From positions 51,682 to 115,681 of the forward strand of contig NZ_SOFG01000007.1 in NCBI RefSeq assembly GCF_004402485.1: 64,000 bases of DNA, written 5' to 3'. The notes beneath the pieces are model-generated. The model saw only the letters and a program-made list of their open reading frames with translations, had not been told where the DNA came from and searched no databases. The DNA comes from Cryobacterium algoricola (GTDB lineage: Bacteria > Actinomycetota > Actinomycetes > Actinomycetales > Microbacteriaceae). Shown one piece after another: positions 21,643 to 40,107 of the stretch; position 1 is the stretch's first letter; every line of letters starts with the position of its first letter. The translations under genes and the position numbers were made by a program.

Positions 21643-21860
21643 CCCGCTCACGGAGCCGGAGCAGGAACCGGAGCCGCCCCGTTCTGGGGGAGGGCTCCGC
21701 CCCGCACTGGGGTCATCCGAGGGATGGCCCGGCCCGACGCGCAACCAGTAGCTTCTAGGAAACGTACTGGACAGGGACGCTTCTGCGTACCCGGGCACCC
21801 GAAATGCCCCGCGTACGCCGAAACAGCGCTGCTCGCATTGCTTACCCTGGAGTACTCGTC

Positions 21861-24800: not shown

Positions 24801-27800
24801 GTCGACTACACCTTCTCCGTCACGGTGCCTGCTCATACAACGGTATACAACGGAAAGCTCTCCGACGCGCTCCCGGCCGGACTGACCATTCCGGTCGGAA
24901 CCGCCGCGACAGTGTCGAGCGTGCCGGCCGGCGGCTCATTCGACCCGACGAACGGCGCCCTGACCTTCCCTGCAACCTTCGACAACACCACAGCCGTGGA
25001 CCAGGTCTTCACGGTGACGCTGCCCGGCGTGCTCGTCGGCGTCGGTCTGGCCTCCGGAACGCTCACCAACACCGCGACCTTCGCGAGCAATGCCACCCTC
25101 GGCGGGACCGCGGTGACGCCGCGCACGGCGGCCAAGGCCATCACGGTCGTGACCCCACTGCCGACCCTCGCCAAGATCGTCGACAAGCCCACCGCCCAGG
25201 GTAATGACATCGTGACCTTCACTCTCACGGCCGGCAACACCGCCGGCCGCCCCGCAGCCTACGACTCCGTCGTCGTCGACTGCCTGCCCGCGGGACTGAC
25301 CCTGACGGCCTTCCTCTCCCCTGCCGCTTCGCCGACGACGACGAGCGTGCCCGGGGACGGCACCAACGGTTGCGCCACCGGAACCACCAGGCTCGGCTGG
25401 ATGCTCCCCGGCACCGGTGCACTTCTGGCCCCCGCCACCACCGTGCTCACCTATTCGGCACGGGTCGCACCCAGCTCCGCCGGGCTCGTCACGTACACCA
25501 ACACGGCGAGCGTTACCGGCTCGACCCTGAGCGGCAACACCGCGAACAACGCCCTCGTCGAGCGCGTTGTCTCTGCGGCCGCGTCGGCCGTCGTCACGGT
25601 CGAAGGTGCGACGACGGTCAAGACGGCCACCCCGAATGCCGTTGCGGTCGGCGGCGCGGTCGCATACACGATCACCGTCACCCTGCCCAAGAACGTCAAC
25701 TTCTACAACGCATCCATCATTGACACCCTCCCCGTCGGCGTGACCGCGAACGCCGGCTCCGCCACGGTCGCCTGCCGCACCGCCACCGCCGTCGACTGCA
25801 TCGCCGCGCTGCCCACGGGCCCCGGTTTCACCCTCGCCCCGTCCGGCCAGAAGATCGGGTGGCTCCTCGGGGACGTCGTCGCTGCGACCGAGGACCGCAC
25901 CGTCACCGTCTCGGTCACCGGCACCGTCACCACGGCGCCCGCCAATACCGCGGGAACGTTGCTGACCAACACCGCCGCTCCGCGCTGGAACGACACGGCC
26001 AAGTCCGATCCGGCCAATGCCGCAGCGAGCTTCGACCGCACCGGCCCGTCCGGATCCGCGGGCGTCACCGTGCTCGAACCGGTGCTCAGAATCGCCAAGA
26101 CCGTCTCCAACGCCACTCCGGAACCCGGCCAGGCCTTCACGTACACCGTCACCGCGACCAACGCGAACACAGCAACGACGTCCGACGCGTTTGCCGTGAC
26201 CATCGTCGACACGCTTCCCGCCGGGATCGACCCTGCGAGCGTGGCGAATATCTCCGGCAATGGTGTGCTCTCCGGCACGACCATCACCTGGACGATGCCG
26301 ACCATCGCCAAGAACGCGTCCGTCACCCTGACCTTCGACGCCAGGCTGGCCGCGTCACCGAGCCTCACCGGCAGCGCGATCGTGAACAGCGTGAGCGTGA
26401 CGAGTTACGCCTCCCTGACGGCGGGCGGCCGGGTTTACACGGCCAACCCGCCGACGGCGACGGCGGCGGTCACACCGCGCTTCCCGCACATCGGCCTCGC
26501 CAAGACCGCGACCAACGGTGCGACCGCATACGTGAACACCCCGTTCGGCTGGACGCTGACGCTCACGAACACCGGAGCCGGCACCGCGGCGACCGTCACC
26601 CCGACGGATGCCCTTCCCGCGAACTGGGTGTACCTCGCCGGTTCAGGCACGGTCTCGATCGGGAGCGGCGCGGCCGGGCCCCTCGGCGACCCGACGGTGA
26701 CCACAGCGAGCGGAGTGCAGACCCTGGCCTGGCCCGCGTTCACGGCAGTGGCCCCCGGAACCGTCATCAGCATCCGCTACAGCGCGCAGCCGACCGCTGC
26801 GGCAACCGTCACTCCGGGAGCCGGCGCGGGCATCCGCCACACCAACACCCTCTCGGCCTCCGCGACGGATGCCACCGGTGCGACCGGTGACGCCGGCCCC
26901 GCCCCGTACGCGGCGAGCCCGGTGACCGCTGACGCGCACATCGATGCGGCCGACGTCACCCTGGCCAAGACGGCCGGTTCGGCCCTCGTCGCCGGGCGCA
27001 GCACGCCGGATGCCTTCAGCGTCACCGTCAGCAACACCGGACCGGACACCGCGGTCGGGGCCGTCGCCGGACACAACTTCACGGTCACGGACACCCCCAC
27101 CCAGCCCCTGCCCGCCGGCATCACCGTCACGGGGGCGACCGGCACCGGTTGGAGCTGCACGGTTCCGAACGCCGTGACCGGCGCCTTCAGCTGTGAACGT
27201 GTCAACGCGAACGAAACCCTCGTCGCAAACACCGCATTCCCGGCGATCACGGTCGCCGTTCTCGCCGGATCCGGTGTGCCGAACGGCACGGCCGTCGTCA
27301 ATTCCGCCACCGTCTCCGCCCGCACCTTCGACCCGCTCCTCGGCAACAACACTGCGAGCGCGACGAACACGGTGACCACGAGCGCCGACCTCGGCATCAC
27401 GAAGCTCGCCAGTGGCGTCTTCGCCGCCGGCGACACGGCGACCTGGACCATAGACGTCACCAACGCGGGTCCGTCGACCTCTGTCGGACCGATCACCGTG
27501 ACCGACACCCTGCCCGGGCACCTCTCCGCCGTCTCGGTCACGGGAACCGGCTGGACCTGCACCACCGCCGTGACCCCGGTGAGCTGTGTCTCCGCGGGCG
27601 GCCTCGCGCTCTCCGCGACCTCGCGCCTGACCGTGACCGCCACGATCGCCTCCGACTTCACCGGCAGCCTCACCAACACGGTTGCCGTCACCGGGACGAC
27701 GCCCGACCCGAACCCGGCAAATAACAGCTCCGCACCGACGACCCCGGTCGGGAGCGCAACAACGCTCTCGATCGCGAAGACCCTGCAGGATGCCCAGCTC

Positions 27801-30218
27801 GTGCCCGGAACGGATGCGACATACCGTTTCGTCGTCGCGAACACCGGCCGCGCCGACGCCCGCAACGTGCGGATCACCGACGCGCTGCCCAACGGCCTGA
27901 CCTTCGTGCGGCTCGCGGCCGGCACCCCTGGCGCCTGGACCTGCACCGAGACCAGCACCACTCCCTCGACTATCGGGTGCATCCTCACGGGCACACTGAA
28001 GCCCGGCGCCGGGGCCACCCAGACCGTCGACGTCGTGGTCGCGGTACCGAGCGGCCTCACCGGTTCCGTCGTCAACACCGCGACCGCAGGAGCAGACAAC
28101 GCCCCCGACGCGAGCGACAACACCAACACGGGACTGACCGGCAAGGCCGATCTGGGAATTACGAAGACCCACCCCGCCGGCGCCGTGACCGCAGGCACCG
28201 ACCTGACGTATTCCCTCTCGGTGACCAACTACGGCCCGTCGAACGCCCCGGCAGGCACCGTCGTGACGGACCACATCCCGGCAGGGCTGGTTGCCCAGGG
28301 CGCGGACGGCGGCGCCGACTGGACCTGCGCTGCACCCGTCGGACAGGATGTGACGTGCACGAGCACGAGCATCCTTCCCGTGGGAGCCACGGCAGGCGTC
28401 GTCTCCGTGACCGCCGGAATCCCGGCGAACGCCGGGCCCGCCGGCTTCACCAACGTCGCGGACGTGACCGGGGTTCTCGACGAGCCAACGCCGAACGCGC
28501 ACCCCAACTCCGCAAGCGACCCGACTGACGTGACCACGCACGCCGACGTCACGATCGTCAAGACGATTGTGCCGTCCGCTCGGACCGTCACCGCCGGTGG
28601 CAGCATCGGCTATGCCCTGACGGTCACCAACTCCGGTCCGTCGACCGCGGATGCGCTCACGGTCGCCGACACACTTCCGGCCGGTTTTACCGCCACCGCG
28701 ATCAGCGGGGCCGGCTGGACCTGCGTCCTGGCCAGCCTCAGCTGCACCCGCGCCCAGCTCGGCGTGACGAACTCCGTGATCAGTGTCACGGCATCCGTTG
28801 CCGCAGCGGTGTCTGACGGCACCCGCGCGGTCAACACCGCGACCGTCGGCTGGACCGACAGCCGCTCATCCGCTCACAGCGACACCGACACCGTCCCTGT
28901 GACAGTTGTCGCGATCGCCGACCTTGACCTGAACCAGTCGACCGCGAGGGCGACCCCCCTCGCGGGCGCCGACGTCGTCTTCGACTTCGCGCTGCGTAAC
29001 GTCGGTCCCTCGGACGCCATCGGTCCGATCACGATCACCGACACCCTGCCGGCCGGGCTCCGGTTCCGTTCGAACACGACGGGCTGGACCTGCGTCGCGA
29101 GTGCCGTTGCCGCGAGCGCTCCGCAGGTCGTCATCTGCACCCTCGGCGGCGGGAGCACCGGCCTTGCCGCCGGCGGTACGGCGACCGCGCTCTCGATCAC
29201 GGTGAACACGGACCCGACTCTCGGTGCCGTCACGCTCGACAACCCCGCGATCGCCGCGACACCGACAACGGAGTCCACGCTCGTCAACAACCCGAGCCCC
29301 GTGCGGGTGCTCCTCGCCCGCAGCGCCGACCTGTCCCTTGTGAAGACCCACACCGGCTCGGGCGCGATCGGCGCTCCGACCCCCTTCATCCTCACGGTCT
29401 CCAACGCGGGACCGTCAAGCGCTGTCGGGGTCCGGGTGGTCGACACCCTCCCGGTCGGGCTCACCTGGGTCAACAGCGCGGGCAGTGACCCGGCGTGGTC
29501 ATGCTCGGCCGCGGCATCGGCCTCCCTCGGTGCAACGGATGTCTCGTGCACGCTCGCGATGCCGGTCGCCCCCGGCGCGGACGCGCCGACCCTCGTCGTG
29601 AACGCCCTCGTCGACGCACGATCGTTCCCGACGGTCACGAACGCCGCCGCCGTCACCGCGGTCACCCCCGACCCGGACCCGGCAAACAACTCGGCGACCG
29701 ATCCGCTCGGCGTCGCCCCGCTGGTGAGTCTCGCCGTGACGAAGCACCACACCGGGCAGGCCATCATCGGATCGAACCTGGACTACCTCGTCTCGGTCAC
29801 GAACACCGGAGCCACGGCGGACCCGGGTGGATTCACCGTGGTCGACACACTCCCGGTCGGGCTCAGCTACGTCTCCGGCCACGGCGACGCCGTGACCTGC
29901 GCCGCAGGGTCCGACGCGGCGCTGGTCACGTGCACCTTCGCCGGCGCGCTGGCCGTCGGGGCGACCCGCACGGTCACGATCACGGTGTCCGTGCTGGCCA
30001 CCGCGTTCCCGACCGTGGTCAACACGGCCACCGCGCACAGCCTCTACGCCGACCCGGCCGCCCCGGCGAGCGACTCCGCGACAGTTCTGAAGGCCCTCGC
30101 GCACACCGGAATCGACCTTCCGGTTGAGCTCCTCGCCCTGCTCGCCCTCCTCGCTCTCCTGCTCGGTGCCGTGCTCGTGTCCATGAGCCGCCGGCGCCGC
30201 GCCCAGCGCTCCGAATAG
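21861..30218 (+). CDS. Giant DUF11-repeat surface protein with LAHTG sortase signal
   Basis: A 2785-residue secreted protein. After a long basic n-region, residues about 31-59 form a signal peptide ending ATAA. An N-terminal domain precedes about seventeen DUF11-type immunoglobulin-like repeats of roughly 110-170 residues, each opening with a strand such as ADLGITKT and closing with a D-x-NPANN-like turn. The C-terminus is LAHTG at residues 2746-2750, a hydrophobic span and an Arg-rich tail: a class E sortase cell-wall signal. Lys at repeat starts and Asn/Asp at ends could form isopeptide bonds. No sortase gene is in the window. Start alternatives are 21804 and 21951; 21861 has GGAG eight bases upstream. 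Likely an adhesin or stalk. Confidence 0.88.
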   Translation: MPLFRPAIVPRHKKRQILFDHGFLAPARAHMRITASVLAGLLVAVGLTVGAIVAPATAAGLVTLTASSTPTILAGENATVSLTATAPAGGTTDYYNLAFRYQLPAGASYVPGSTAGASGPALPDPTIVTITDVVGPPAVTHQVLIWPNVADLVHGSTTGLTFGITPNPSVFLVGSPIPGNASVYGQTDPRLLAKFTPTTGVVVAGSFAFTDAVTPVSTKVAALKVTKTEPSPEHELMRGAQDQATVYTITTKNTGVAATTGVVLVDYLPAGLEFLGCGSVDNSAAGTAEYPGSGPLGSSTGGPSCATPALVETVNDRAGFLGQVFTKVTWNLGTLTAGSTRTVTYSAAIPLKANTMWPAGQVPNAAARLQAANLNNNTGASTRQEAPAAAGQGLTNTAVATGTYTGPVATPADAAATSSDSVTVKAMDLSIVKSVDSSDFVADGIAHFTLLLRSSEYTTDSAMTITDVVPNGLCPIMPASVVVTGPRAGQLPAGCTGGGTVTGATVNSVVANADGSFTVVLTPNPTSLPVNTSRTIGYDALMSSTYAGDSQSGPTVAGDSFLNTVGITGTTTDVTAGLGSTPVTDDSSAGLASSSPTITKKVLPRPAAGGTAVDCAAAVNAPNYTDTQVPTYHLGDKVCFQLTVAFASSTRTRNARITDFTPVGTSFDGFAPASGSTVAVTPATGTESATPAGTLPAAWNLGTPDNGSTDLYVAKGATLTLFVSAIVTSTSPTAVIDITANLMKYRQESTAGAVLALRDQVDYAIAPAPTVSLAKKISAVNGAAPAAPATDVKVKEGDVVTYALDVANTGTAAAGTDVPVAAVQVWDALPAGYTCTTWIVASITPAGSCLNPADSGYPTTNAVPANARSVIVWTVPGPLAPGAAATRLGYAVTVPTGVSVSTVFPNTASVVAFTSPNTAGGDTVYFPKGSLNPAHDTDGNALPANSTAQIRLADAAVAKTGVSRIVATGNTANQAVAGELVDYTFSVTVPAHTTVYNGKLSDALPAGLTIPVGTAATVSSVPAGGSFDPTNGALTFPATFDNTTAVDQVFTVTLPGVLVGVGLASGTLTNTATFASNATLGGTAVTPRTAAKAITVVTPLPTLAKIVDKPTAQGNDIVTFTLTAGNTAGRPAAYDSVVVDCLPAGLTLTAFLSPAASPTTTSVPGDGTNGCATGTTRLGWMLPGTGALLAPATTVLTYSARVAPSSAGLVTYTNTASVTGSTLSGNTANNALVERVVSAAASAVVTVEGATTVKTATPNAVAVGGAVAYTITVTLPKNVNFYNASIIDTLPVGVTANAGSATVACRTATAVDCIAALPTGPGFTLAPSGQKIGWLLGDVVAATEDRTVTVSVTGTVTTAPANTAGTLLTNTAAPRWNDTAKSDPANAAASFDRTGPSGSAGVTVLEPVLRIAKTVSNATPEPGQAFTYTVTATNANTATTSDAFAVTIVDTLPAGIDPASVANISGNGVLSGTTITWTMPTIAKNASVTLTFDARLAASPSLTGSAIVNSVSVTSYASLTAGGRVYTANPPTATAAVTPRFPHIGLAKTATNGATAYVNTPFGWTLTLTNTGAGTAATVTPTDALPANWVYLAGSGTVSIGSGAAGPLGDPTVTTASGVQTLAWPAFTAVAPGTVISIRYSAQPTAAATVTPGAGAGIRHTNTLSASATDATGATGDAGPAPYAASPVTADAHIDAADVTLAKTAGSALVAGRSTPDAFSVTVSNTGPDTAVGAVAGHNFTVTDTPTQPLPAGITVTGATGTGWSCTVPNAVTGAFSCERVNANETLVANTAFPAITVAVLAGSGVPNGTAVVNSATVSARTFDPLLGNNTASATNTVTTSADLGITKLASGVFAAGDTATWTIDVTNAGPSTSVGPITVTDTLPGHLSAVSVTGTGWTCTTAVTPVSCVSAGGLALSATSRLTVTATIASDFTGSLTNTVAVTGTTPDPNPANNSSAPTTPVGSATTLSIAKTLQDAQLVPGTDATYRFVVANTGRADARNVRITDALPNGLTFVRLAAGTPGAWTCTETSTTPSTIGCILTGTLKPGAGATQTVDVVVAVPSGLTGSVVNTATAGADNAPDASDNTNTGLTGKADLGITKTHPAGAVTAGTDLTYSLSVTNYGPSNAPAGTVVTDHIPAGLVAQGADGGADWTCAAPVGQDVTCTSTSILPVGATAGVVSVTAGIPANAGPAGFTNVADVTGVLDEPTPNAHPNSASDPTDVTTHADVTIVKTIVPSARTVTAGGSIGYALTVTNSGPSTADALTVADTLPAGFTATAISGAGWTCVLASLSCTRAQLGVTNSVISVTASVAAAVSDGTRAVNTATVGWTDSRSSAHSDTDTVPVTVVAIADLDLNQSTARATPLAGADVVFDFALRNVGPSDAIGPITITDTLPAGLRFRSNTTGWTCVASAVAASAPQVVICTLGGGSTGLAAGGTATALSITVNTDPTLGAVTLDNPAIAATPTTESTLVNNPSPVRVLLARSADLSLVKTHTGSGAIGAPTPFILTVSNAGPSSAVGVRVVDTLPVGLTWVNSAGSDPAWSCSAAASASLGATDVSCTLAMPVAPGADAPTLVVNALVDARSFPTVTNAAAVTAVTPDPDPANNSATDPLGVAPLVSLAVTKHHTGQAIIGSNLDYLVSVTNTGATADPGGFTVVDTLPVGLSYVSGHGDAVTCAAGSDAALVTCTFAGALAVGATRTVTITVSVLATAFPTVVNTATAHSLYADPAAPASDSATVLKALAHTGIDLPVELLALLALLALLLGAVLVSMSRRRRAQRSE

Positions 30219-30784: not shown

Positions 30785-31909
30785 ATGGCTGACTTTGGAA
30801 ACGAGGGCCTTGCGGAGCTCTATCGCCGGCCCGGTGACGCATCCACCGTTTATGTCGATGTCACCCAGGATCGTGAGGATCCGAGACGCACCTCGAGCTT
30901 GCGGCATCGCTCGGTGCGCGAGGCGCTGGCCGACGCCGGCGCCCTCGATGCGGATGCCGACGCCGTGATCGACCGGATCGAGGAGCCTCCGGGCAGGCCG
31001 GGCAAGGTCAGCAGGCTGCTCGTCGTCCGGGACGGTGTCGTCGAACTCGACGAGCTCCTGCCCGGCGAACCGCTCGGCGAACTGATCGTCTCGCACGGGC
31101 CGGTGCCGAGCCTGCTGCCGCTGCTCACCCAGCGGCCGCGCGACCTCACGTACATCATCGCTGAGGTCGGGCGCGACGGCGGCGAGATCCGGCAGTTCCG
31201 GCTCAGCCGCACCGGAGCCGTCGCCGAGGAGGAGATCGAGGGCGACACCGAGTACATCACCAAGGTGCAGGGGGGATTCCTCTCCAATTCCCGGTACCAG
31301 CGCGATACCGAGGAGATCTGGAAGCGCAACGAGGGCCAGGTCGCCGACGCGATCGACGAGATGGTCCGCACGAGCGGCGCGGAGCTGCTGATGCTCACGG
31401 GAGACGTGCGCGCGCGGCAATTACTGGTCGCCCAGCTGGCCCCCGCGAGTAGGGACATCCTCGCCGTGGTGCCGACGAATACCCGGCCAGGCGGCGCGAC
31501 GACCGAGGAGCTCGAGGCCGACCTCGACCGGCACCTCGCGGCGATCCTCGCCCAGGACGAATACGACGCCCTCGAACGCCTCGAGTCGGGTCGCGACGAG
31601 GGACTCTCCGAGGCCGACTTCGCCGCCGTCGTGCGCGATCTGCAGCAGGGCCAGGTCGAGGTCCTCCTGCTCTCGTCCGGCGCGCTGCCCGAGGCGACCC
31701 TGCTCGCGCTCGATCGTGAGCCCTGGGTGGCGTCGAATGAAGCGGATGCCCTCGGCGCGGTCGTTCTCGGAGCCGTGCCTGCCGCAGACGCGCTCGTCCG
31801 CGCCGCGGTGCTCACCGACGCGCGTGTCGTCGTGGTGTCGCCTGCGGAGTTGCACGGTGGGAGCGGGGCCGCCGCCCTGCTGCGCTGGTCCACCCTCTCG
31901 ACCCACTGA
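30785..31909 (+). CDS. eRF1-like protein of the Rv2629/Vms1 (baeRF) type
   Basis: A 374-residue protein resembling the mycobacterial Rv2629 group, a bacterial branch of the eRF1/Pelota fold often labelled Vms1/Ankzf1-family peptidyl-tRNA hydrolase; ribosome hibernation factor Balon belongs to the same superfamily. Regions visible are an N-terminal domain (STVYVDVTQDRED), a middle domain with FLSNSRYQRDTEEIWKRNEGQVADAIDEMV and LLMLTGDVRARQLL, and an L7Ae-like C-terminal third (VEVLLLSSGALPEATLLAL). No GGQ is seen, so peptide release in the eRF1 manner is unlikely. Binding to stalled or idle ribosomes is a family-based inference. The structured leader suggests regulated translation. Confidence 0.78.
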   Translation: MADFGNEGLAELYRRPGDASTVYVDVTQDREDPRRTSSLRHRSVREALADAGALDADADAVIDRIEEPPGRPGKVSRLLVVRDGVVELDELLPGEPLGELIVSHGPVPSLLPLLTQRPRDLTYIIAEVGRDGGEIRQFRLSRTGAVAEEEIEGDTEYITKVQGGFLSNSRYQRDTEEIWKRNEGQVADAIDEMVRTSGAELLMLTGDVRARQLLVAQLAPASRDILAVVPTNTRPGGATTEELEADLDRHLAAILAQDEYDALERLESGRDEGLSEADFAAVVRDLQQGQVEVLLLSSGALPEATLLALDREPWVASNEADALGAVVLGAVPAADALVRAAVLTDARVVVVSPAELHGGSGAAALLRWSTLSTH

Positions 31910-32004: not shown

Positions 32005-34374
32005 TCAGCCGATCAGGCTGGGGCGCAGGTCGCGCAGGGTGCGGAAGTGCGTCATCCGCGTCACCCCGACCGCGGCGAGCACCAGGCCGCCGACGACCCA
32101 GAGCAGCAGCACCCCGGCATCCGCCCAGGCCGTGGCCGGGTTGCCGCCGTACATCAGCTGGCGGATGCCGTCGACCGCGTAACTCATCGGCACGACGTGG
32201 TGCAGCCACGCGAGCGGGGCCGGCAGGGTCTGCCAGGGGAAGGTCCCGCCGGCGGTGACGAGCTGGATCACCATGAGCACGAGGCCGATGAACTGGCCGA
32301 CGCTGCCGAGCCACACATTGAGCGCGAGGATGATCGCCGCGAAGGCGAGGGCGGCGAGCCCCATCATCGCGTAGGTTCCGACCGGGTTGTGCACCTCGAA
32401 GTGCAGGATCCCGGCGAGGATTCCGAACAGCCCCGCCATCTGCACGAGCCCGAGCAGGCCGGGGGTGAGCCAGCCGGCGAGGGTGATCTTGAGCGGGGAG
32501 TGCAGCGCCGTGATCGCCCGGCGGGAGACCGGCTTCACGATCAGGAACAGCGCGTAAATGCCGATCCAGCCGGCGAGGCTCGCAAAGAACGGGGCCATGC
32601 CCGCGCCGTATGTTCCGGCCGAGGTGACGGCGGCGGTCGCGAGCGAGACCGGGTCGGCGATCGTCGAGCCCTGCAGGGTGCGGGTCGGCGCGTCCGAATT
32701 CGGGATGCTCGTCACCCCGTTCGCGAGGCCGTCGCGCAGCACGCCCGCGCCGGACTGCAGCGTCACGAGCCCGGTGTTGAGGCTCGTCGCGCCGGTCGCC
32801 AGGCTTTCGGCGCCGGTCGCTGCGGTGCTCGCTCCGGTGGCGGCGGATGCTGCGCCGCTGTTGACCGTTCCGGCTCCGGTGGAGAGCGACGCGGCCCCGG
32901 ATGCGGCGGTGCCGGCTCCGGAGGCGAGCTTCGCCGCGCCGGTCGAGGCATCGCTTGCGCCGGACGCGAGCTTCGCGGCCCCTGCTGCCGCGGTGTTTGC
33001 CCCGGTCGAGACGGTGCTCGCACCGGCCGCGGTCTGCGCCGCGCCGGTTGCGAGTTTCGCCGCGCCGTCCCGGGCGGTGACGGCGCCGGCGGCAGAGTTT
33101 GCTGCGCCGGTGGCTGTCAACGTGGCTACAGGAGCAAGCTTTCCGCTCGTCCCGGCGAAGATACCGAGATCTGAAGCGACTGCGGATGCATCGTCGTGCT
33201 GCCCATCAAGCCGGGCAGTGATCGGGTCGATTGAGGCGTGCACTGCCGCGAGCACCGCGTCGAGCTGGGTGGACGACAAACCGGCCGTCTGAAGCGCGGT
33301 CGTGATCGTGGAGGGCGCTGCCGTGAGCTCGGAGGTGGCAGCTGTGATGGTGTCGTCCGTCGCCAGGGCTTTCGTCGCGAGCGTGGGCGCAGCCTTCGAG
33401 AAGGCGGTCAACCAATCGGACATGGCGCTCGCCCCACCCGACACGAGTGCGGTCCCGGCAGCAAGGTCCTTTGTCCCTGCGGCGAGATCCGCAGCGCCCG
33501 AGGAGACCTTCGTCGCCCCTGCGGAGACCTGGCCCGCGCCGGTCGCGAGCGTCGCGGTCCCGGCGGCGAGGCTCGTTGCGCCGCTCGAGAGCTGGCTCGT
33601 GCCGGAGGCGAGGGTGCCTGCACCGGTGGCGAGGTCTCTGGTGCCGGTGGCGAGCTGGCCCGCGCCGGTCGCGAGGGAGCTCGTCCCGGTGGCGAGCTGG
33701 CCGAGACCGGAGGCGAGGACGCCGACTCCGCTCGAGAGCTGGGCGGCACCGCTCGCGAGGCTCGCGCTTCCGTCGGTGGCCGAGGTCGCGCCATCCGTCA
33801 GTTTGGTGGCGCCGTCTGCGGCCGTCACAAGGCTCGACCGCACGTCGGAGAGCCCGATCAGCAGCCGGTCGGCCGCCTCCTCGTTGACCTTCGAGACGAT
33901 CGCCTCGCGGATCTTCGTCGCGGCCTGGCCGCCGATCGTCGAGGCGAGGTAGCTGTTGGTGTCGTTCGTGGTGAGCGTGATCACCGATTTGCGCGGCGCG
34001 GACGTCGCAGAGGACGCGATGCCCTCGGAGAAGTCGGCCGGGATGGTCACGCTGAAGTCGTAGCTCGCGTCGGCGACACCGGCTTCTGCGGTCGCGGCGG
34101 AGACCCGATGCCACTGGAAAGCGCCAGCGTCGGAGAGCTCGGTCGCGATGTCATCGCCGTAGTTGTGGCTCACGTTGTCGATGACCGTTCCGGTGTCTGC
34201 GACGACGAGCGCGACCGGCACCCGGTCGAGGCCGGCGTACGGGTCCTGGTTGGCCCACAGGTACAGGCCGCCGTAGAGCACGGGCACGAGCAGCAGGGCG
34301 GCGAGGGCGACCCGGGACATCACGGTTGCGGTCAGGCGCGCCAGTTCGGCGCGGATCATGGCGAGGACTTTCAC
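32005..34374 (-). CDS. YhgE/Pip-family membrane protein (left module)
   Basis: A 789-residue protein: an N-terminal span (about residues 20-42) after a short basic start, an extracellular YhgE domain (VALVVADTGTVIDN, then YDFSVTIPADFSEGIAS, then NDTNSYLAST), about 300 residues of LxxGAxxLxxG repeats likely to form a long helical rod, and a C-terminal ABC2-permease-like domain with about five spans (GGTFPWQTLPAPL, then VVPMSYAVDGIRQL). It begins with GTG overlapping the stop of the degenerate ABC protein (GTGA), so the two are coupled. YhgE relatives are phage-infection or ABC-type export components; cargo is unknown. Poly-Ala repeat codons make the coding DNA itself repetitive. Confidence 0.85.
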   Translation of the reverse strand: MKVLAMIRAELARLTATVMSRVALAALLLVPVLYGGLYLWANQDPYAGLDRVPVALVVADTGTVIDNVSHNYGDDIATELSDAGAFQWHRVSAATAEAGVADASYDFSVTIPADFSEGIASSATSAPRKSVITLTTNDTNSYLASTIGGQAATKIREAIVSKVNEEAADRLLIGLSDVRSSLVTAADGATKLTDGATSATDGSASLASGAAQLSSGVGVLASGLGQLATGTSSLATGAGQLATGTRDLATGAGTLASGTSQLSSGATSLAAGTATLATGAGQVSAGATKVSSGAADLAAGTKDLAAGTALVSGGASAMSDWLTAFSKAAPTLATKALATDDTITAATSELTAAPSTITTALQTAGLSSTQLDAVLAAVHASIDPITARLDGQHDDASAVASDLGIFAGTSGKLAPVATLTATGAANSAAGAVTARDGAAKLATGAAQTAAGASTVSTGANTAAAGAAKLASGASDASTGAAKLASGAGTAASGAASLSTGAGTVNSGAASAATGASTAATGAESLATGATSLNTGLVTLQSGAGVLRDGLANGVTSIPNSDAPTRTLQGSTIADPVSLATAAVTSAGTYGAGMAPFFASLAGWIGIYALFLIVKPVSRRAITALHSPLKITLAGWLTPGLLGLVQMAGLFGILAGILHFEVHNPVGTYAMMGLAALAFAAIILALNVWLGSVGQFIGLVLMVIQLVTAGGTFPWQTLPAPLAWLHHVVPMSYAVDGIRQLMYGGNPATAWADAGVLLLWVVGGLVLAAVGVTRMTHFRTLRDLRPSLIG

Positions 34375-35039
34375 AGGGAATCGGCTCCAGCGGTGGTTAT
34401 GGGAGAGCGTCCGAGTCCGGAGGGCAGCACGCCGTCGGGCTCAAGGTTGGCGAGTTCAAGGTCGGCGATGGCGTGTGCTGAGGCATCTCCGGCGATGACG
34501 AGCACCGCATAGCCGCGCGCGGCCAGGCCGCCGGCGATATCCCACCAGCCGAGCGGGTCGCCGCCGTGGCGGTCGGGAGAGGTGAGCACGAGGCCAAGCA
34601 CGCCGTCGCGCAGCACGGCCAGCTCGGTCAGCAAGCGGATGCGGTCGTCGGGTGCGAGGTCGCCCATGTCCCACCGTGCCCGGTCGGCGAGGCCGAGGCC
34701 GGCGAGGAGGTGCTGGGTGGTCTTGCGGCGGAGGCCGGCGAACATCAGCTCTTCGGCGACGACGTCTTCGACCATGACGTCTGCGGCGGGCTCCGAGACG
34801 CCCAGGGCGTCGACGAGGGCGATCTGACGGCGCATCGCGGCGTAGTCGGTGTGGCCGTCGATCGTGACGGTCCCGGTGTCCGGGCGCATCCGGCCGGAGG
34901 CGATGAGGCCGAGGACCGTGGGACGGCGTTCGGTCTCGGCCCGGGCGAAGGCGACCGCGCCACTGGTGAATTCCAGGGTCGTCGGGGGAAGGGCCGAGTC
35001 TTTCGGACCCTTGGCGACGGACGAGAGGTTAACGCGCAT
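34371..35039 (-). CDS. Degenerate ABC ATPase-like partner of YhgE (left module)
   Basis: A 222-residue protein that aligns with ABC nucleotide-binding domains around VLGLIASGRMRPDTGTVTIDG but has lost all catalytic motifs: the Walker A place reads AETERRPTV, the signature place LAPDDR, and the Walker B/catalytic Glu place LGLVLTSPD. It should not hydrolyse ATP. Start at 35039 is preferred over the longer frame (to 35084) because it begins at the domain. It is translationally coupled to the YhgE gene and transcribed away from the operator at 35158. Role inferred: structural or regulatory subunit of a YhgE complex. Confidence 0.75.
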   Translation of the reverse strand: MRVNLSSVAKGPKDSALPPTTLEFTSGAVAFARAETERRPTVLGLIASGRMRPDTGTVTIDGHTDYAAMRRQIALVDALGVSEPAADVMVEDVVAEELMFAGLRRKTTQHLLAGLGLADRARWDMGDLAPDDRIRLLTELAVLRDGVLGLVLTSPDRHGGDPLGWWDIAGGLAARGYAVLVIAGDASAHAIADLELANLEPDGVLPSGLGRSPITTAGADSL

Positions 35040-35157
35040 GCGAGCGCCTCCGGAGGTGAGAGGAAACCGGTACGAGGCCGGCACGGAATCCTGGGGACAG
35101 GACGGGGTATCGCGGCGCTGGGACTGAGGTCACTCTAATTCACCGGGCCCCATTTTT

Positions 35158-35171
35158 ACTGACTAGTCAGT
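35158..35171. promoter_or_regulatory. Palindromic operator O1 of the left YhgE module
   Basis: ACTGACTAGTCAGT is a perfect 14-bp palindrome about 120 bp upstream of the left pseudo-ABC start. The same sequence with one change occurs at 36641-36654 in front of the right module, whose last gene is a TetR regulator. Likely TetR site. Confidence 0.65.
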
Positions 35172-35287
35172 CCGCCACCTATCGCGCGCTGGATGGCAGG
35201 AGGATTGCGCACCAGGTCGTAGACCTTATCGGCAGTGCTGCCGCGTTGGAGTACGTGACGCAGGAACTCGGCTACAGCCAAGCCCCG

Positions 35288-35558
35288 ATGAAGCTTTCAC
35301 GCAAGATTCAAGCAATCGGAATCGCTTGCCTGACGTTGGTGGGAATGGGGTTCGTCGGAGCGGCACCCTCCCAGGCAGCGACGGGGCCCGGCGGCTCGGT
35401 CGTCACATGCCATCTGGCGGTTCACGACCCGCGTTCAGAGCGTGGAAGCTACCGGTGCCACTGAACCCATCAATTGCTCGACTCAGAGCAGGATGAGCCA
35501 AGAATCTGACGATGAGTATGTTGTGATCAAGGACTTTTCGGCCACGTGGACTGGCTGA
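35288..35558 (+). pseudogene. Small secreted protein, probably frameshifted
   Basis: The ATG at 35288 opens a 58-residue frame with a clear signal peptide (MKLSRKIQAIGIACLTLVGM, cleavage after SQA) and stops at 35464. In the +1 frame, protein-like sequence continues from about 35440 (RVQSVEATGATEPINCSTQS, later DDEYVVIKDFSATWTG) to a stop at 35558, including a second Cys that could pair with the one in VVTCHLAV. This looks like one secreted protein of about 89 residues broken by a one-base shift, in a region of lower GC than the flanks. It could instead be an intact short peptide. Confidence 0.45.
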
Positions 35559-35612
35559 GACATTAAAGCACTGACCTGGAATCCAATGGCCGAAAGACGA
35601 TGAGAGAAGCAA

Positions 35613-36305
35613 TTGAGTGAACACGTGAAACCTTCATCTACTCCACGGCCCGCGGAGTGGGTGGTGGCGGGAATGAGTACCTTCGGATCCACGGTGAAGA
35701 ACCTCGCACCCGCCGCCTACCCCGCGTACGCGAGGATATTTCACCCTCTCCGGACGACCAATGGCGACGATGAGCCGCCGGTGCTCTGGAGTGATATCGC
35801 CGCGAGATTTGGGCGAATCTCACATCCCGCTATGCAATGGAAGAGCATTTCCCGGTCTACTGCCAGCGAGTCCTGGGATCGCCCTGATGAGCCGATGGTT
35901 GGATCCTTGCCCTCTGAACCCGCCCGACGCCTCACGCAAATCTTGGCGGACCATACAGGCACACCTAGCGACTGTTTCTATGGGTTGTGGGAAGGTTGGG
36001 GTGGGGCTCCGTTGGGATCCAAGATCCCAACGTTTGAGATACCGAATCGTGTGATGGGACTCTTTCAAGGTTCAATCGAAGACGCCAACCAGTCGTTCGA
36101 GCCCTGGCCAGCGGACCGGCGTGCCAACCTTTGGTGGCCTGCGGACCATGCCTGGTTTGTGGTCTCGGAAATTGACTATGACAGCACGATCGTCGCGGCG
36201 TCTCGTGATTGTGTAGATGAGATACTGCGAGCCCGGGGAGTAGAAGCGCTCGAAGTCTCGCCATCTACTGACCTTTCAAATCTGGGTGACACTGTCAATA
36301 TCTAG
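35613..36305 (+). CDS. Uncharacterised actinobacterial protein in low-GC insert
   Basis: A 230-residue protein that I cannot assign to a function. Notable stretches are EWVVAGMSTFGSTVKNLAP, AYARIFHPLR, VLWSDIAARFGRISHPAMQW, TGTPSDCFYGLWEGWG and WWPADHAWFVVSEIDYDST; Trp and acidic residues are frequent and there are no membrane segments. Similar unannotated proteins occur singly in other actinobacteria, as far as I recall. The start may be TTG 35613 (after GAGAGAAG) or GTG 35625. GC is roughly 50-60% by eye against about 70% around it, and a strong terminator follows, so recent acquisition is likely. Confidence 0.65.
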   Translation: MSEHVKPSSTPRPAEWVVAGMSTFGSTVKNLAPAAYPAYARIFHPLRTTNGDDEPPVLWSDIAARFGRISHPAMQWKSISRSTASESWDRPDEPMVGSLPSEPARRLTQILADHTGTPSDCFYGLWEGWGGAPLGSKIPTFEIPNRVMGLFQGSIEDANQSFEPWPADRRANLWWPADHAWFVVSEIDYDSTIVAASRDCVDEILRARGVEALEVSPSTDLSNLGDTVNI

Positions 36306-36348
36306 CGTCTTACGGGTGCGCTGTCATAGGCAGGGATGCCCGACACAA

Positions 36349-36378
36349 AAAAGGCCCCGGGGATCCCGGGGCCTTTTT
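36349..36378. terminator. Strong intrinsic terminator
   Basis: Eleven-bp stem AAGGCCCCGGG/CCCGGGGCCTT (36351-36361 and 36365-36375) with a three-base loop, an A-run on the left and five T at 36374-36378. It ends the low-GC insert and would work in both directions, insulating the right YhgE module. Confidence 0.9.
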
Positions 36379-36380
36379 CT

Positions 36381-36614
36381 AGTCGGTGCGCGTGTTCTTA
36401 CCGAACCCAGCCCGGGCCCGGCACGGTCGGGATGATGACTTGTGCGGTTCCGGTTTTGCGTGCGGCTAGGTGACCTTCCCTTGTGCGCGCACGGAGGGGG
36501 CCGTTCTGGCGGTCAAAGAGCACGGCCGCGTGGCGGTCCCAGTGGCGAAAATGCGCGGGATTCCGGACAGGCGTCGGACAGCCCGGCACTCGCACCGGTC
36601 GAACCCGCCCGTTT
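36381..36614. other. Non-coding stretch before the right YhgE module
   Basis: Part of the 380-bp gap between the orphan gene and the pseudo-ABC gene. I see no gene, repeat family member or RNA here; the open minus-strand frame that crosses it is a shadow of the coding DNA further right. Confidence 0.5.
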
Positions 36615-36654
36615 TTGCGCGGGCGGGCCCGCGGATCTATACTGACTAGTCGGT
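36615..36654 (+). promoter_or_regulatory. Promoter and operator O2 of the right YhgE module
   Basis: TTGCGC (36615-36620), a 17-bp spacer and TATACT (36638-36643) form a good promoter. The -10 overlaps the palindrome ACTGACTAGTCGGT (36641-36654), one base different from O1, so a bound repressor would occlude RNA polymerase. The start codon follows at 36686. Confidence 0.72.
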
Positions 36655-36685
36655 ACAAAACGAGTACCGCCACGAAAGGAACGAC

Positions 36686-37363
36686 GTGCAGGCGACATTG
36701 GTAGCGGACGAACTGACTGTCAGTTACAAACGAGGCCTGGTCTACGGGCCGATCAGCTTCACCGCCGATGACGGCCTCACGGTCATCTGCGGCCCGGCCG
36801 GCAGTGGGCGCACGAGCCTGCTCCTCACCCTCGCCGGGCGGATGCGGCCATCCTCCGGCACCCTGTCGGTGCTCGGCGAAGACCTTCCCCGCCACGCCCG
36901 CCGGGTCCAGCGCCGCACCGGCGTGTCCGGGTTCCACGGCATCGACTCCCTCGAAGAGTCGGTCACCGTCGGGGCGGCCATCCGCGAGCGCCACGCCTGG
37001 CTCGCCCCCTGGTGGTCCTTCATCCGTGCGGTCGACGACGCCGAGGTCTTCCGCGTCTGCGGACCGGTCTTCGGCGACATCCCGGTTCCGGCCGCGAGCA
37101 CGATGATCTGGGACCTCGACGAGGTCGAGATGGTGCTCCTCCGCGCATCCCTCGCCATGATGAGCCGGCCCAGCGTGCTGTTCTTCGACCAGGTCGAGCA
37201 GGTGCACTCCCCGGAGGCACGCCGACTGCTCTGGTCCCGGCTCGGCGCGATCGTCGCGGCCGGCACTCCCGTGATCGCCTCGGCCATCGCACCAGACTTC
37301 GAAATGTGGGCGGATCTCGGGCTCAAACCGACCGTCCAGTACATGAACCAGGAGATTCGCTAG
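36686..37363 (+). CDS. Degenerate ABC ATPase-like partner of YhgE (right module)
   Basis: A 225-residue ABC nucleotide-binding-domain relative. Walker A is GPAGSGRTS (residues 36-44) with Arg42 in place of the catalytic Lys; the signature LSGGQ is replaced by WDLDEVEM near residue 142; Walker B reads VLFFDQ, with Gln169 where the catalytic Glu should be. It may bind nucleotide weakly but is unlikely to turn it over. The YhgE start follows the stop directly (TAGATG). The changes are at the same three motifs as in the left module, though more conservative, so the pair could form a heterodimer. Function inferred, not known. Confidence 0.8.
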   Translation: MQATLVADELTVSYKRGLVYGPISFTADDGLTVICGPAGSGRTSLLLTLAGRMRPSSGTLSVLGEDLPRHARRVQRRTGVSGFHGIDSLEESVTVGAAIRERHAWLAPWWSFIRAVDDAEVFRVCGPVFGDIPVPAASTMIWDLDEVEMVLLRASLAMMSRPSVLFFDQVEQVHSPEARRLLWSRLGAIVAAGTPVIASAIAPDFEMWADLGLKPTVQYMNQEIR

Positions 37364-39496
37364 ATGTTCGCCTTCCTCTCTACGGGCACCGAACTGCGCC
37401 GATTCGGCAAGGGCACCCTGCCCAAGATCGCCCTCGTCGTCTTGATGTTCATTCCGCTGATCTATGGCGCCCTCTACCTCTGGGCGTTCTGGGCGCCGGA
37501 CAAGGAACTCAGCAAGCTCCCGGTCGCCCTCGTCAACTCCGACACGGGCGCCGTCCGCGACGGCACGGACGTGACCGCGGGCAATGACCTCGTCGGCAAG
37601 CTCCTCGACGGTCACGACCTGGGCTGGGTCGAAACCAGCGCGGCCGATGCCGCCACCGGCGTGACCGACGGCGACTACTACTTCTCCGTCACCATCCCCG
37701 CGGACTTCTCCACGGATGCGATCTCCGCGGGCACGGACACCCCGACCGCCGCCCAGGTCATGGTCGACTACAACGACAGCAACAGCTTCCTCGCCTCCAC
37801 CCTCGGCAAGCAGGCCATGATCCAGCTGCGTGACGCCGTGTCCCTGAACATCGGCGACCAGACCGTCAACACGATGCTCGTGGCCGTCAACAAGGCCGGT
37901 GACGGCATCCGCACCGCCGCGGCCGGTGCCGGAACACTCGCCGACGGTCTCAGCACGGCCGAAACCGGCACCGGGACTCTCGTCGCCGGGCTGAACGACC
38001 TCTCCGCCGGCGCGTCCACCCTCGACGACGGCGCGGCCCAGGTGGCCGACGGATCGTCAACGCTGGCCGCGGGGATCGGCACACTCTCCTCGGGCGCGGC
38101 AACGCTCTCTGACTCCTCGGTAAAACTCTCCGACGGCGCGTCGACTGTCGCCGCCGGGACCCAGAAGGTGTCCGACGGACTCGCAAAGGCCGCAACGGGG
38201 GCGGCCGCCCTCTCTGACTCCTCCGACCAGCTCGCCGTGGGGGCGACTACGATCGCGACGGGAACCGGACAGCTCGCAACCGGAACGAAGGACCTCGACG
38301 ACAGCCTCGCGAAGCTGCAGACGGCCATGGCCGCTGCCCCGCCCGGAACGCCGGCATCCGCGTTCCTGCCGACCGTGACGCAGCTCGCAACCGGAGCCGA
38401 CACCCTCAATACGAAGACGCAGGGCGCCGCCACCCAGGTTTCCGGCTACGCGAAGCTCAGCGGGAACTTCGCCACCGGCATGGGGACGCTCTCCGATTCG
38501 CTGACCGCCGGCGCCCCCGGGGCCGCGCAGGTGGCGGCCGGAGCGGCGCAGGTGGCCTCCGGATCGGCCGCCCTCGCCTCCGGAGCCGGCCAGCTGGCCA
38601 CCGGCGCGGCCACCGCCGCCACCGGGTCGGCCACCCTCGCCACCGGCGCGGATAGCCTCGCCGCCGGAACCGGCACCCTCGTCGACGGCAGCAGCCAGCT
38701 CGTTGCGGGCGGCACCGCCCTGGAGTCCGGCACCGTGCAACTCGCCGACGGCAGCCACACGCTCGCCGATGCCCTCGCGACCGGAGCCGCGGACGCACCG
38801 AGCCTCACCGACGCGCAGATCTCCGAGAAGGCCGCGGTGATCGCGAACCCCGTCGACCTCAACCAACGGTGGGAGAACGCCTCGGACAGCTTCGGCGAGG
38901 GCTTCGCGCCCTTCTTCCTCGCCCTGGCCACCTTCGTCGGTGCACTCATCACGTGGCTCATCCTGCGGGCCCTGCCGACGCGGGCGCTCGCCAGCGCAGC
39001 CTCCGGCCTGCGGGCCACGATGACCGGGTTCCTGCCGGCCATGGCAATCGGGTTGAGCCAGGTCATCATCATGGTCCTGGTGCTCGTCTATGGCATCGGG
39101 CTGACCCCGGCGCACTGGCTGGGCATGTCCGCGTTCATCTACCTCACGACGCTTGCGTTCCTGGCACTGCAGCAGATGTTCATCATCCTGTTCGGCACGG
39201 CGGCCGGCCGCGTGATCAGCCTGGTGCTGCTCATGCTGCAGCTCAGTTCCTCCGGCGGAACCTATCCCGTCGAGACCACGCCGGAGTTCTTCCAGATCCT
39301 GCACCCGTGGATGCCCGCTTCCTACGTCGTCACTGGGCTGCGGCAGCTCATCACGGGTGGGATCGACTCTAGACTGTGGCTTTCCGTGCTCGTTCTCGTA
39401 GGCATCCTGGTCGGCTCGATTGCGATCAGCGCCTGGAGCGCGTCTCGGCAGCGGATGTGGACGATCACCCGGCTGCACCCGGAACTGACCATCTAG
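37364..39496 (+). CDS. YhgE/Pip-family membrane protein (right module)
   Basis: A 710-residue paralogue of the left YhgE: first span about residues 22-43, extracellular domain with VALVNSDTGAVRDG, DYYFSVTIPADFSTDA and NDSNSFLASTLGKQA, a rod of LxxGxxxLxxG repeats from about 180 to 460, then five or six spans with SSGGTYPVETTPEFFQ, HPWMPASYVVTGLRQL and a basic tail. The layout is that of an ABC-2-like permease with a long external helical insertion. Two non-identical YhgE proteins under a shared operator suggest a heteromeric membrane complex. Substrate unknown; lipid, peptide or envelope export are possibilities. Confidence 0.86.
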   Translation: MFAFLSTGTELRRFGKGTLPKIALVVLMFIPLIYGALYLWAFWAPDKELSKLPVALVNSDTGAVRDGTDVTAGNDLVGKLLDGHDLGWVETSAADAATGVTDGDYYFSVTIPADFSTDAISAGTDTPTAAQVMVDYNDSNSFLASTLGKQAMIQLRDAVSLNIGDQTVNTMLVAVNKAGDGIRTAAAGAGTLADGLSTAETGTGTLVAGLNDLSAGASTLDDGAAQVADGSSTLAAGIGTLSSGAATLSDSSVKLSDGASTVAAGTQKVSDGLAKAATGAAALSDSSDQLAVGATTIATGTGQLATGTKDLDDSLAKLQTAMAAAPPGTPASAFLPTVTQLATGADTLNTKTQGAATQVSGYAKLSGNFATGMGTLSDSLTAGAPGAAQVAAGAAQVASGSAALASGAGQLATGAATAATGSATLATGADSLAAGTGTLVDGSSQLVAGGTALESGTVQLADGSHTLADALATGAADAPSLTDAQISEKAAVIANPVDLNQRWENASDSFGEGFAPFFLALATFVGALITWLILRALPTRALASAASGLRATMTGFLPAMAIGLSQVIIMVLVLVYGIGLTPAHWLGMSAFIYLTTLAFLALQQMFIILFGTAAGRVISLVLLMLQLSSSGGTYPVETTPEFFQILHPWMPASYVVTGLRQLITGGIDSRLWLSVLVLVGILVGSIAISAWSASRQRMWTITRLHPELTI

Positions 39497-39534: not shown

Positions 39535-40107
39535 ATGCCACGTGCCACGGGAACAAAACGGGCGATCCTGGACGCCGCGCTGGAGCTGGCCGCCACCCGC
39601 GGGATCACCGGCACCACGATGGATGACGTCGCCGAGCTCGCGCACGTTGCCAAGGGCAGCCTGTACTACAACTTCAGCTCAAAGGACAAGCTCTTCGAGG
39701 CGCTGCTGGAGGAGGGGGTCGGTTCGCTCTCCGACTCCCTCCGGGCGGCGCGGGACGGGCTGCACGGGAGTGAGGCGCTCGTCGCGCTGATTGCGGTGCT
39801 CCTCGACCTGATCGAATCGAACGCGGGACTCGCCAAGCTCATGGCGGCCGAGATCTTCCGCACCGATCGCGCCTGGCAGAAGACGCTGTTCGCCCTGCGG
39901 CACGAGGCCCTCGCGGTCTTCGCCGAGGCGATCGCCGAGGCCCGGCCGGCCACGGCGGCAGCGGGAACGAGCGGTCTGATGGCGTCGAGCGTCTTCGGCG
40001 CCGTGCTGATGGCGGGGCTCGAATGGCTGGTCTTCGATCCCGACCGCGACCGCGACGAGGTCTCCGCGGCCATCCTCGAGTCGCTCTCCGGCGGCCTGCT
40101 CGCCTGA
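39535..40107 (+). CDS. TetR-family regulator of the YhgE modules
   Basis: A 190-residue repressor. The helix-turn-helix is GITGTTMDDVAELAHVAKGSLYYNFSSKDKLFEALL (given as overlapping landmarks GTTMDDVAEL and GSLYYNFSSKDKLF, about residues 25-55); the remainder is an all-helical ligand domain. The ATG at 39535 follows GAAGGGA. It is 38 bp downstream of the right YhgE gene and so belongs to its operon; the two ACTGACTAGTCAGT-type palindromes at 35158 and 36641 are its probable targets, giving autoregulation and coordinated control of both modules. Confidence 0.85.
   Translation: MPRATGTKRAILDAALELAATRGITGTTMDDVAELAHVAKGSLYYNFSSKDKLFEALLEEGVGSLSDSLRAARDGLHGSEALVALIAVLLDLIESNAGLAKLMAAEIFRTDRAWQKTLFALRHEALAVFAEAIAEARPATAAAGTSGLMASSVFGAVLMAGLEWLVFDPDRDRDEVSAAILESLSGGLLA

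Follow-up and report, generated by a model that had tools for sequence, protein, structure and literature searches.

A 64,000-nucleotide stretch of the Cryobacterium algoricola genome (assembly GCF_004402485.1, contig NZ_SOFG01000007.1; hereafter the window) carries two divergent gene modules, A and B, in each of which a YhgE/Pip membrane protein (YhgE-A or YhgE-B) is preceded by a degenerate relative of the nucleotide-binding domain (NBD) of ATP-binding cassette (ABC) transporters (NBD-A or NBD-B). The favored reading of these modules, at a probability of roughly 0.55, is that each is a TetR-controlled, ABC-derived, non-hydrolytic YhgE scaffold for the traffic of envelope lipids or hydrophobic compounds, tied in one lineage to an MmpL transporter. 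That the conserved partner of YhgE (pseudo-NBD) is non-hydrolytic is held with good confidence, while an export-type role for the pair is evenly balanced. A preliminary description of this locus stated that each YhgE protein is preceded by an ABC-like protein, and the gene boundaries confirm it: the stop codon of NBD-A and the GTG start of YhgE-A share a 4-base overlap (GTGA), and the TAG that ends NBD-B is followed immediately by the ATG of YhgE-B, downstream of which lies a TetR gene. The interval given there, 35040-39496, encloses module B and leaves out module A (32005 to 35039). Coordinates of all features are collected in Table 1; the ATG at 35039 is the likely start of NBD-A, since M16 of the longest frame does not vary across a 16-row alignment and a GGAGG lies 5' of it.

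Both membrane proteins score well over the curated cut-offs of TIGR03061 and TIGR03062, which places them in the YhgE/Pip family. Both also match the ABC-2 membrane domain PF12698 (75.3 and 84 bits), and neither reaches the EsaA model TIGR03929 (53.8 and 43.8 bits against a cut-off of 122). The long external helical rods envisaged earlier agree with the heptad repeats present in both proteins (TIGR03057 stretches) and with the long helices predicted between the first two membrane helices in a low-confidence model of YhgE-A (predicted template modeling score, pTM, of 0.44). No PDB structure matched that model at E 0.001 or better; its weak matches included the ABC-2 external domain 3cni (E 0.012), an ABCH-9C transporter (E 0.025), and coiled-coil proteins.

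The two partners differ in how readily their ancestry can be recognized. NBD-B exceeds the PF00005 cut-off of 25 bits (Table 1) and matches PDB sequences, the best being ABCA NBDs, while its top NCBIfam matches, NodI and DrrA, are both far under their cut-offs. NBD-A has zero matches in Pfam, NCBIfam, or the PDB sequences. A canonical profile made from ordinary NBDs of the same genome gave NBD-B 28.2 bits and picked up 72 of the 114 partners described below, but gave NBD-A only 6.1 bits; sequence alone therefore left the origin of NBD-A open, and structure decided it. The AlphaFold2 model of NBD-A, made with 80 sequences, reached a predicted local distance difference test score (pLDDT) of 81.5 and a pTM of 0.80. 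Foldseek returned 972 matches to this model at E <= 0.001, to ABC nucleotide-binding domains, with 4hlu the best (4.9e-12), and comparison with LptB (6b8b) gave a Z of 17.1 and 3.2 A across 201 residues. NBD-A is thus assigned the ABC NBD fold by its predicted model and NBD-B by PF00005, so that neither partner falls outside that fold, and descent of both from ABC nucleotide-binding domains is supported.

A survey of YhgE neighborhoods in Actinomycetota, suggested when the locus was first described, placed the two modules in a wider context. Samples at the phylum, order, and class levels were searched for the family to obtain YhgE loci; 120 YhgE-centered loci were hand-picked among the matches listed, spread over families and not random, and 20 further Cryobacterium loci were selected for NBD-A or NBD-B matches, so the partner rate in the latter reflects that choice. 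Five of the 140 fetched loci (L080, L131, L188, L189, L192) had no open reading frame (ORF) with both YhgE domains and were excluded. Among the 149 YhgE ORFs with both end domains, 114 are immediately preceded, on their own strand, by an NBD-like ORF; with the selected genus loci and the window set aside, the count is 86 of 121. The gap from partner stop to YhgE start lies between -30 and +60 bases in 110 of the 114 pairs and is exactly -1 in 46, and the partner frames span 20 family codes and 42 genus codes. The pairing of pseudo-NBD and YhgE is an old arrangement common to many actinomycetes and no local oddity. Two copies (L145, L146) were scored as partnerless although their MMPL frames each contain a weak match to the NBD (E 0.002 and 0.0014). 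Tandem YhgE pairs with no recognized ABC-like partner (L139, L143, L184-L187) constitute a second arrangement in other actinomycete lineages, and the partnerless YhgE genes at L075 and L079, nested among partner-bearing relatives with the same family code, are possible losses of the pseudo-NBD.

Neither partner in the window retains the catalytic motifs of an ABC ATPase. The Walker A pattern GxxGxGK[ST] is absent (AETERRPTV in NBD-A, GPAGSGRTS in NBD-B), as is the LSGGQ signature (aligned letters LAPDD in NBD-A and LDEVE in NBD-B, the latter in the region WDLDEVEM), and both lack the Walker B catalytic Glu (LTSPD in NBD-A, FFDQ in NBD-B), the Q-loop Gln, and the H-loop His. The motifs quoted in the preliminary description are all present, and the three losses it listed are real; its count was too low, with the Q-loop and H-loop residues gone as well. 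Without catalytic motifs, modules A and B lack the active NBD partner of an ABC-2-type exporter. In an alignment of the 114 partners with 26 ordinary NBDs encoded in this genome, not one partner kept the Q-loop Gln, the GG of the signature, the catalytic Glu, or the H-loop His (one or two rows being gapped in some columns). The ordinary NBDs keep the Q-loop, Glu, and H-loop residues in 26, 26, and 25 of 26 cases, respectively; these controls were selected by Walker A plus LSGG (26 NBDs from 25 of 30 loci, with L225-L227, L233, and L241 dropped because the expressions were unmatched), which limits the free comparison to these three columns. The Walker A Lys column of the 114 partners holds Arg in 58, Pro in 28, Lys in 14, His in 10, Gln in 2, Leu in 1, and Ala in 1. 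The 14 partners with Lys, among them the only partly aligned L179, are also without the Q-loop Gln, signature, Glu, and His. Loss of the hydrolytic motifs is family-wide and loss of the P-loop gradual, the losses not having been simultaneous. The earlier argument had turned on whether homologs keep intact motifs: the hydrolytic loss holds throughout the family, although single motifs are kept in part of it.

In a tree of the NBDs (a quick method with some long branches, L147 and L179 left out), NBD-A lies among the partners without a P-loop and NBD-B among the Arg partners, with the Lys types elsewhere. Parsimony counts 10 changes in the state of the Lys column when canonical rows are taken as one extra state. 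NBD-A has acquired invariant residues of its own: T51, R54, P55, the GRM after P55, and PDRHGG at the place of the Walker B Glu and D-loop. Among the named NBD-A relatives (the best 80 of 203 loci), PDRHGG occurs in 80 of 80 and GxGK[ST] in none; EELMFA and LGLIASGRM served as search patterns, so their counts in these 80 loci are biased. Pairwise dN/dS values (NG86) were 0.15, 0.20, 0.18, 0.40, and 0.28 for NBD-A against five relatives and 0.21, 0.17, 0.13, and 0.36 for NBD-B against four. This range of 0.13-0.40, together with the uniform absence of the four hydrolytic motifs, bears out the earlier proposal that the loss was selected rather than sporadic. It is extremely unlikely that the partners are decaying relics, dead genes carried along with YhgE. 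Eroded catalytic motifs, YhgE lineages with no recognized partner, and stop codons in 2 NBD-A matches of 100 genomes (G002, G057) and in 1 of the 80 named loci (L265) would fit such decay, but dN/dS values well under 1, the taxonomic breadth of the partner frames, the new invariant motifs, and the strict gene order do not.

Distances among partners correlate with those among their YhgE proteins (r 0.906 for 114 pairs; none of 999 permutations as high). Taken together, the coupled gene order, the correlated divergence, and the retained fold suggest that the contact between NBD and membrane protein has been kept; the power stroke, to judge from the lost motifs, has probably been given up. Power might instead be supplied in trans by an ordinary NBD encoded elsewhere, with the pseudo-NBD as a regulatory subunit. 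PF00005 matches number 118 in the genome, some importers are known to share ATPases, and an intact ABC ORF lies ~1.9 kb upstream of the partnerless tandem YhgE locus L187. This alternative is nevertheless quite improbable, given that the canonical profile finds no match among same-strand ORFs that end within 900 bases 5' of a partnerless YhgE (35 copies), that only 7 non-partner ORFs reach E 1e-10 in the fetched loci, 3 of them motif-intact (for the window, 25-45 kb only), and that the docking site would presumably be taken by the pseudo-NBD.

Modules A and B can each occur without the other. Across 57 Cryobacterium genomes, 11 contain both modules, 14 only A, 7 only B, and 25 neither, with an A-B association of p 0.09 (presence called at E < 1e-30 for A and E < 1e-80 for B; some assemblies are fragmented). 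At the A-only loci inspected, a TetR gene lies across the palindrome from A and there is no second NBD match (6 of 6), while at the B-only loci inspected TetR follows YhgE-B (4 of 4). In the 10 relatives' loci fetched with both modules, the two are divergent neighbors with like palindromes. The preliminary description had proposed a heterodimer of the two partners gating a two-YhgE complex, a proposal that gains no support here: the tree places NBD-A and NBD-B in separate clades, either module can be present alone, and the surviving module keeps its TetR gene and operator-like palindrome. For an obligate heteromer of NBD-A, NBD-B, YhgE-A, and YhgE-B, judged here by co-occurrence only in partly fragmented assemblies, the joint presence and divergent layout in Cryobacterium can be cited; the single-module genomes and loci, the A-B association, and the finding of an NBD-B relative above 80 bits in only 6 of the 80 named NBD-A loci (some flanks incomplete) make it highly improbable. 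Each NBD-YhgE pair is probably its own unit.

The palindromes upstream of the modules and the adjoining TetR gene point to a probable shared regulation. In the 4.15-Mb genome, ACTGACTAGTCRGT occurs exactly only 5' of modules A and B; with up to two mismatches the palindrome has 10 strand matches and a reversed control 33, so that only exact sites count in this genome. Within one mismatch, ACTGACNNGTCAGT lies 5' of all 28 partner genes from the window and the 20 genus loci (divergent pairs share a stretch), of 24 of 86 partner genes outside the genus loci, in seven family codes, and of only 1 of the 35 partnerless YhgE copies, while the reversed ACTGACNNGTCAGT pattern has no match ahead of partner genes. 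Outside the genus loci, palindrome and TetR (>60 bits) occur together at 22 pairs, the palindrome only at 2, TetR only at 4, and neither at 58 (Fisher p 2e-14, uncorrected for phylogeny). At any strength, TetR-like ORFs occur in the fetched stretch of 74 of the 114 partner-bearing YhgE copies compared to 9 of the 35 partnerless ones. The modules have the gene-level organization of a TetR operon, with an adjoining TetR gene and a palindrome upstream, and this co-occurrence suggests that the TetR protein would bind the palindrome.

The third YhgE of the same genome (L136, contig C21, 670727-678950) follows, at a gap of -1, a 1042-aa frame that carries MMPL domains (283.7 bits) and, at its C-terminus, a pseudo-NBD. 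Of 150 Microbacteriaceae genomes, 53 contain relatives of this NBD part; frames of at least 966 aa hold 50 of the 54 matches, and all 12 of the best-scoring fusion loci have both MMPL and the YhgE N-terminal domain. With other families included, an MMPL frame adjoins YhgE at 9 of the 140 fetched loci; those of other families include L171, whose ABC domain is better preserved (57.2 bits), and L179. Among the 80 named NBD-A loci, six, all Leifsonia, have an MMPL frame and a YhgE next upstream of NBD-A and YhgE-A. The fusion-type domain is present in 28 of the 57 Cryobacterium genomes and is weakly associated with B within the genus (p 0.024, uncorrected for phylogeny). No published description of a pseudo-NBD fusion of MmpL was found in the open-access papers searched. 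MmpL proteins are a proton-driven transporter family. In at least one branch the pseudo-NBD has MmpL as a natural partner; as a component of modules A and B MmpL is unproven, and its action in trans for these two modules is doubtful.

In ordinary ABC-2 exporters, two membrane subunits carry a docked pair of NBDs at their cytoplasmic side. Under the favored reading, each module would descend from an ABC-2-type exporter whose ATPase is now a permanent, non-hydrolytic subunit of YhgE. The pseudo-NBD would most likely occupy the normal NBD place against the cytoplasmic face of a dimer of YhgE, holding or gating it as a clamp or adaptor, while the long helical rod of YhgE would extend into the cell wall. 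Energy would be external or gating passive, and the MmpL fusion is the clearest case of a possible energy origin, as a pseudo-NBD fused to MmpL in one branch implies that the scaffold can tie YhgE to an energized pump. A TetR repressor would bind ACTGACTAGTCAGT-type palindromes, and a hydrophobic ligand would release both modules, whose job would probably be to move or present lipids of the envelope or hydrophobic compounds. A broader generalization is tentative and, on balance, doubtful: a conserved ATP-free class of ABC descent, in which a pseudo-NBD adaptor may link a YhgE dimer with a wall-spanning rod to a proton-driven MmpL, fused or in trans, for lipid or hydrophobic export within one old TetR regulon.

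There are several observations that weigh against the favored reading. The Walker A Lys is kept in 14 of the 114 partners and the Walker B Asp in 64, and the Arg variants at Walker A might still bind nucleotide. These features could also serve a nucleotide-sensing switch, in which the partner binds ATP or ADP without hydrolysis and opens or closes YhgE according to the energy state of the cell. The P-loop of NBD-B, of normal length with Arg for Lys, would suit such a switch; it is unlikely in view of the missing P-loop glycines and Lys of NBD-A, the absence of GxGK[ST] from its named relatives, and the Pro at the Lys position in 28 partners. The scaffold reading is also weakened by the 35 of 149 YhgE copies with no recognized partner, many in tandem pairs, since a partner is then not needed by every YhgE. 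The correlation of partner and YhgE distances partly reflects organism phylogeny, and nearest partner and nearest YhgE agree in only 62 of 114 cases. The YhgE-A model is poor, as its pTM indicates. Neither palindrome nor TetR above 60 bits lies in the fetched flank of 58 of the 86 pairs outside the genus loci. Finally, no MMPL-like ORF was found among the ORFs of the window, and the fusion occurs in 13 of 25 Cryobacterium genomes with A and 15 of 32 without it (Fisher p 0.79), showing that it is not required for A.

The modules resemble several known systems in part. YhgE/Pip proteins (Pip of L. lactis, PIPEF of E. faecalis, YueB of B. subtilis, and EsaA of type VII secretion), as presented in the available portion of PMC4999554, have the same N- and C-terminal YhgE domains and a long external region that separates membrane helices 1 and 2. 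The Firmicutes proteins appear in the available descriptions without an ABC-like partner, while each Cryobacterium module has a coupled pseudo-NBD. With ABC-2-type exporters of the DrrAB/NodIJ kind the modules share the PF12698 membrane part and an NBD gene 5' of the membrane gene; they differ in an NBD without signature, catalytic Glu, Q-loop, or H-loop and in a membrane protein that carries long heptad-repeat helices. The likeness to MmpL (RND-type) transporters lies in the MMPL domain pair fused to a pseudo-NBD in the third module and in many Microbacteriaceae; modules A and B themselves have no MMPL domain.

Family knowledge had been summarized earlier as phage receptor or export hints only, to which the MmpL fusion is now an addition. 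PIPEF is a phage receptor, and its authors, in the accessible part of their account, regard the YhgE/PIP domain as having no known function and speculate on small-molecule or type VII transport (PMC4999554). In the portion available of PMC9782250, Saccharopolyspora hirsuta grown on cholesterol has a YhgE gene up 3.82-fold and an MMPL gene up 3.33-fold, with consecutive locus tags, and the YhgE gene is classed by the authors under export of lipid components. Partial texts also report a mutated YhgE gene, among others, in two ginkgolic acid-non-sensitive E. faecalis isolates (PMC8754111); a YhgE/Pip gene that a table for B. subtilis and E. coli includes with those lower with 2-butanol than with 1-butanol (PMC11728337); and a YhgE/Pip gene of M. 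avium that lies upstream of Mce genes and is a hotspot of recombination (PMC12584985). The open-access papers searched included none on an ABC-like partner coupled to YhgE or on the palindrome, most subscription papers being outside the search.

Other features of the window lie between or near the modules. The insertion between the palindromes contains a 230-aa frame (35613-36305) with no Pfam match and, near 35290, a short signal-peptide-like frame that by eye appears frameshifted. Beside module A, positions 30785-31909 encode a protein resembling the Rv2629 family of ribosome hibernation factors (175 bits, under the curated cut-off of 320), and a 2804-aa frame farther upstream, at 21804-30218, resembles, by eye, a secreted surface protein with repeated domains.

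Table 1. Features of modules A and B and their intergenic region, in window coordinates.
Feature	Position	Strand	Evidence or remark
YhgE-A, 789 aa	32005..34374	-	TIGR03061 165.8 bits, TIGR03062 195.8 bits, TIGR03057 x11 stretches
NBD-A, degenerate ABC nucleotide-binding-domain protein, 222 aa	34371..35039	-	from ATG 35039; longest frame from 35084
Walker A position of NBD-A, AETERRPTV, without glycines or lysine	34914..34940	-	T51, R54, P55 invariant in 80 sequences
Palindrome ACTGACTAGTCAGT, operator-like, 5' of module A	35158..35171	.	pattern matches
Insertion of ~1.4 kb between both palindromes	35172..36596	.	absent in relative G034 (L193); G+C 0.60 vs window 0.70
Palindrome ACTGACTAGTCGGT, operator-like, 5' of module B	36641..36654	.	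overlaps TATACT -10-like hexamer 36638-36643
NBD-B, degenerate ABC nucleotide-binding-domain protein, 225 aa	36686..37363	+	PF00005 31.2 bits; PDB sequence matches
Walker A position of NBD-B, GPAGSGRTS (Lys to Arg)	36791..36817	+	alignment
YhgE-B, 710 aa	37364..39496	+	TIGR03061 175 bits, TIGR03062 212.7 bits, TIGR03057 x12 stretches
TetR-family regulator, probable repressor on both palindromes	39535..40107	+	PF00440 63.7 bits; operator-TetR co-occurrence

The pseudo-NBDs would provide an example of an ABC lineage that has kept its motor as a structural part after catalysis was lost, with intermediates (Lys, Arg, His, and no P-loop) present in living species. For YhgE/Pip proteins, so far familiar chiefly as phage receptors, the coupled partner, the palindrome with its TetR gene, and the MmpL fusion together offer a testable route to the job that these proteins perform for the cell.

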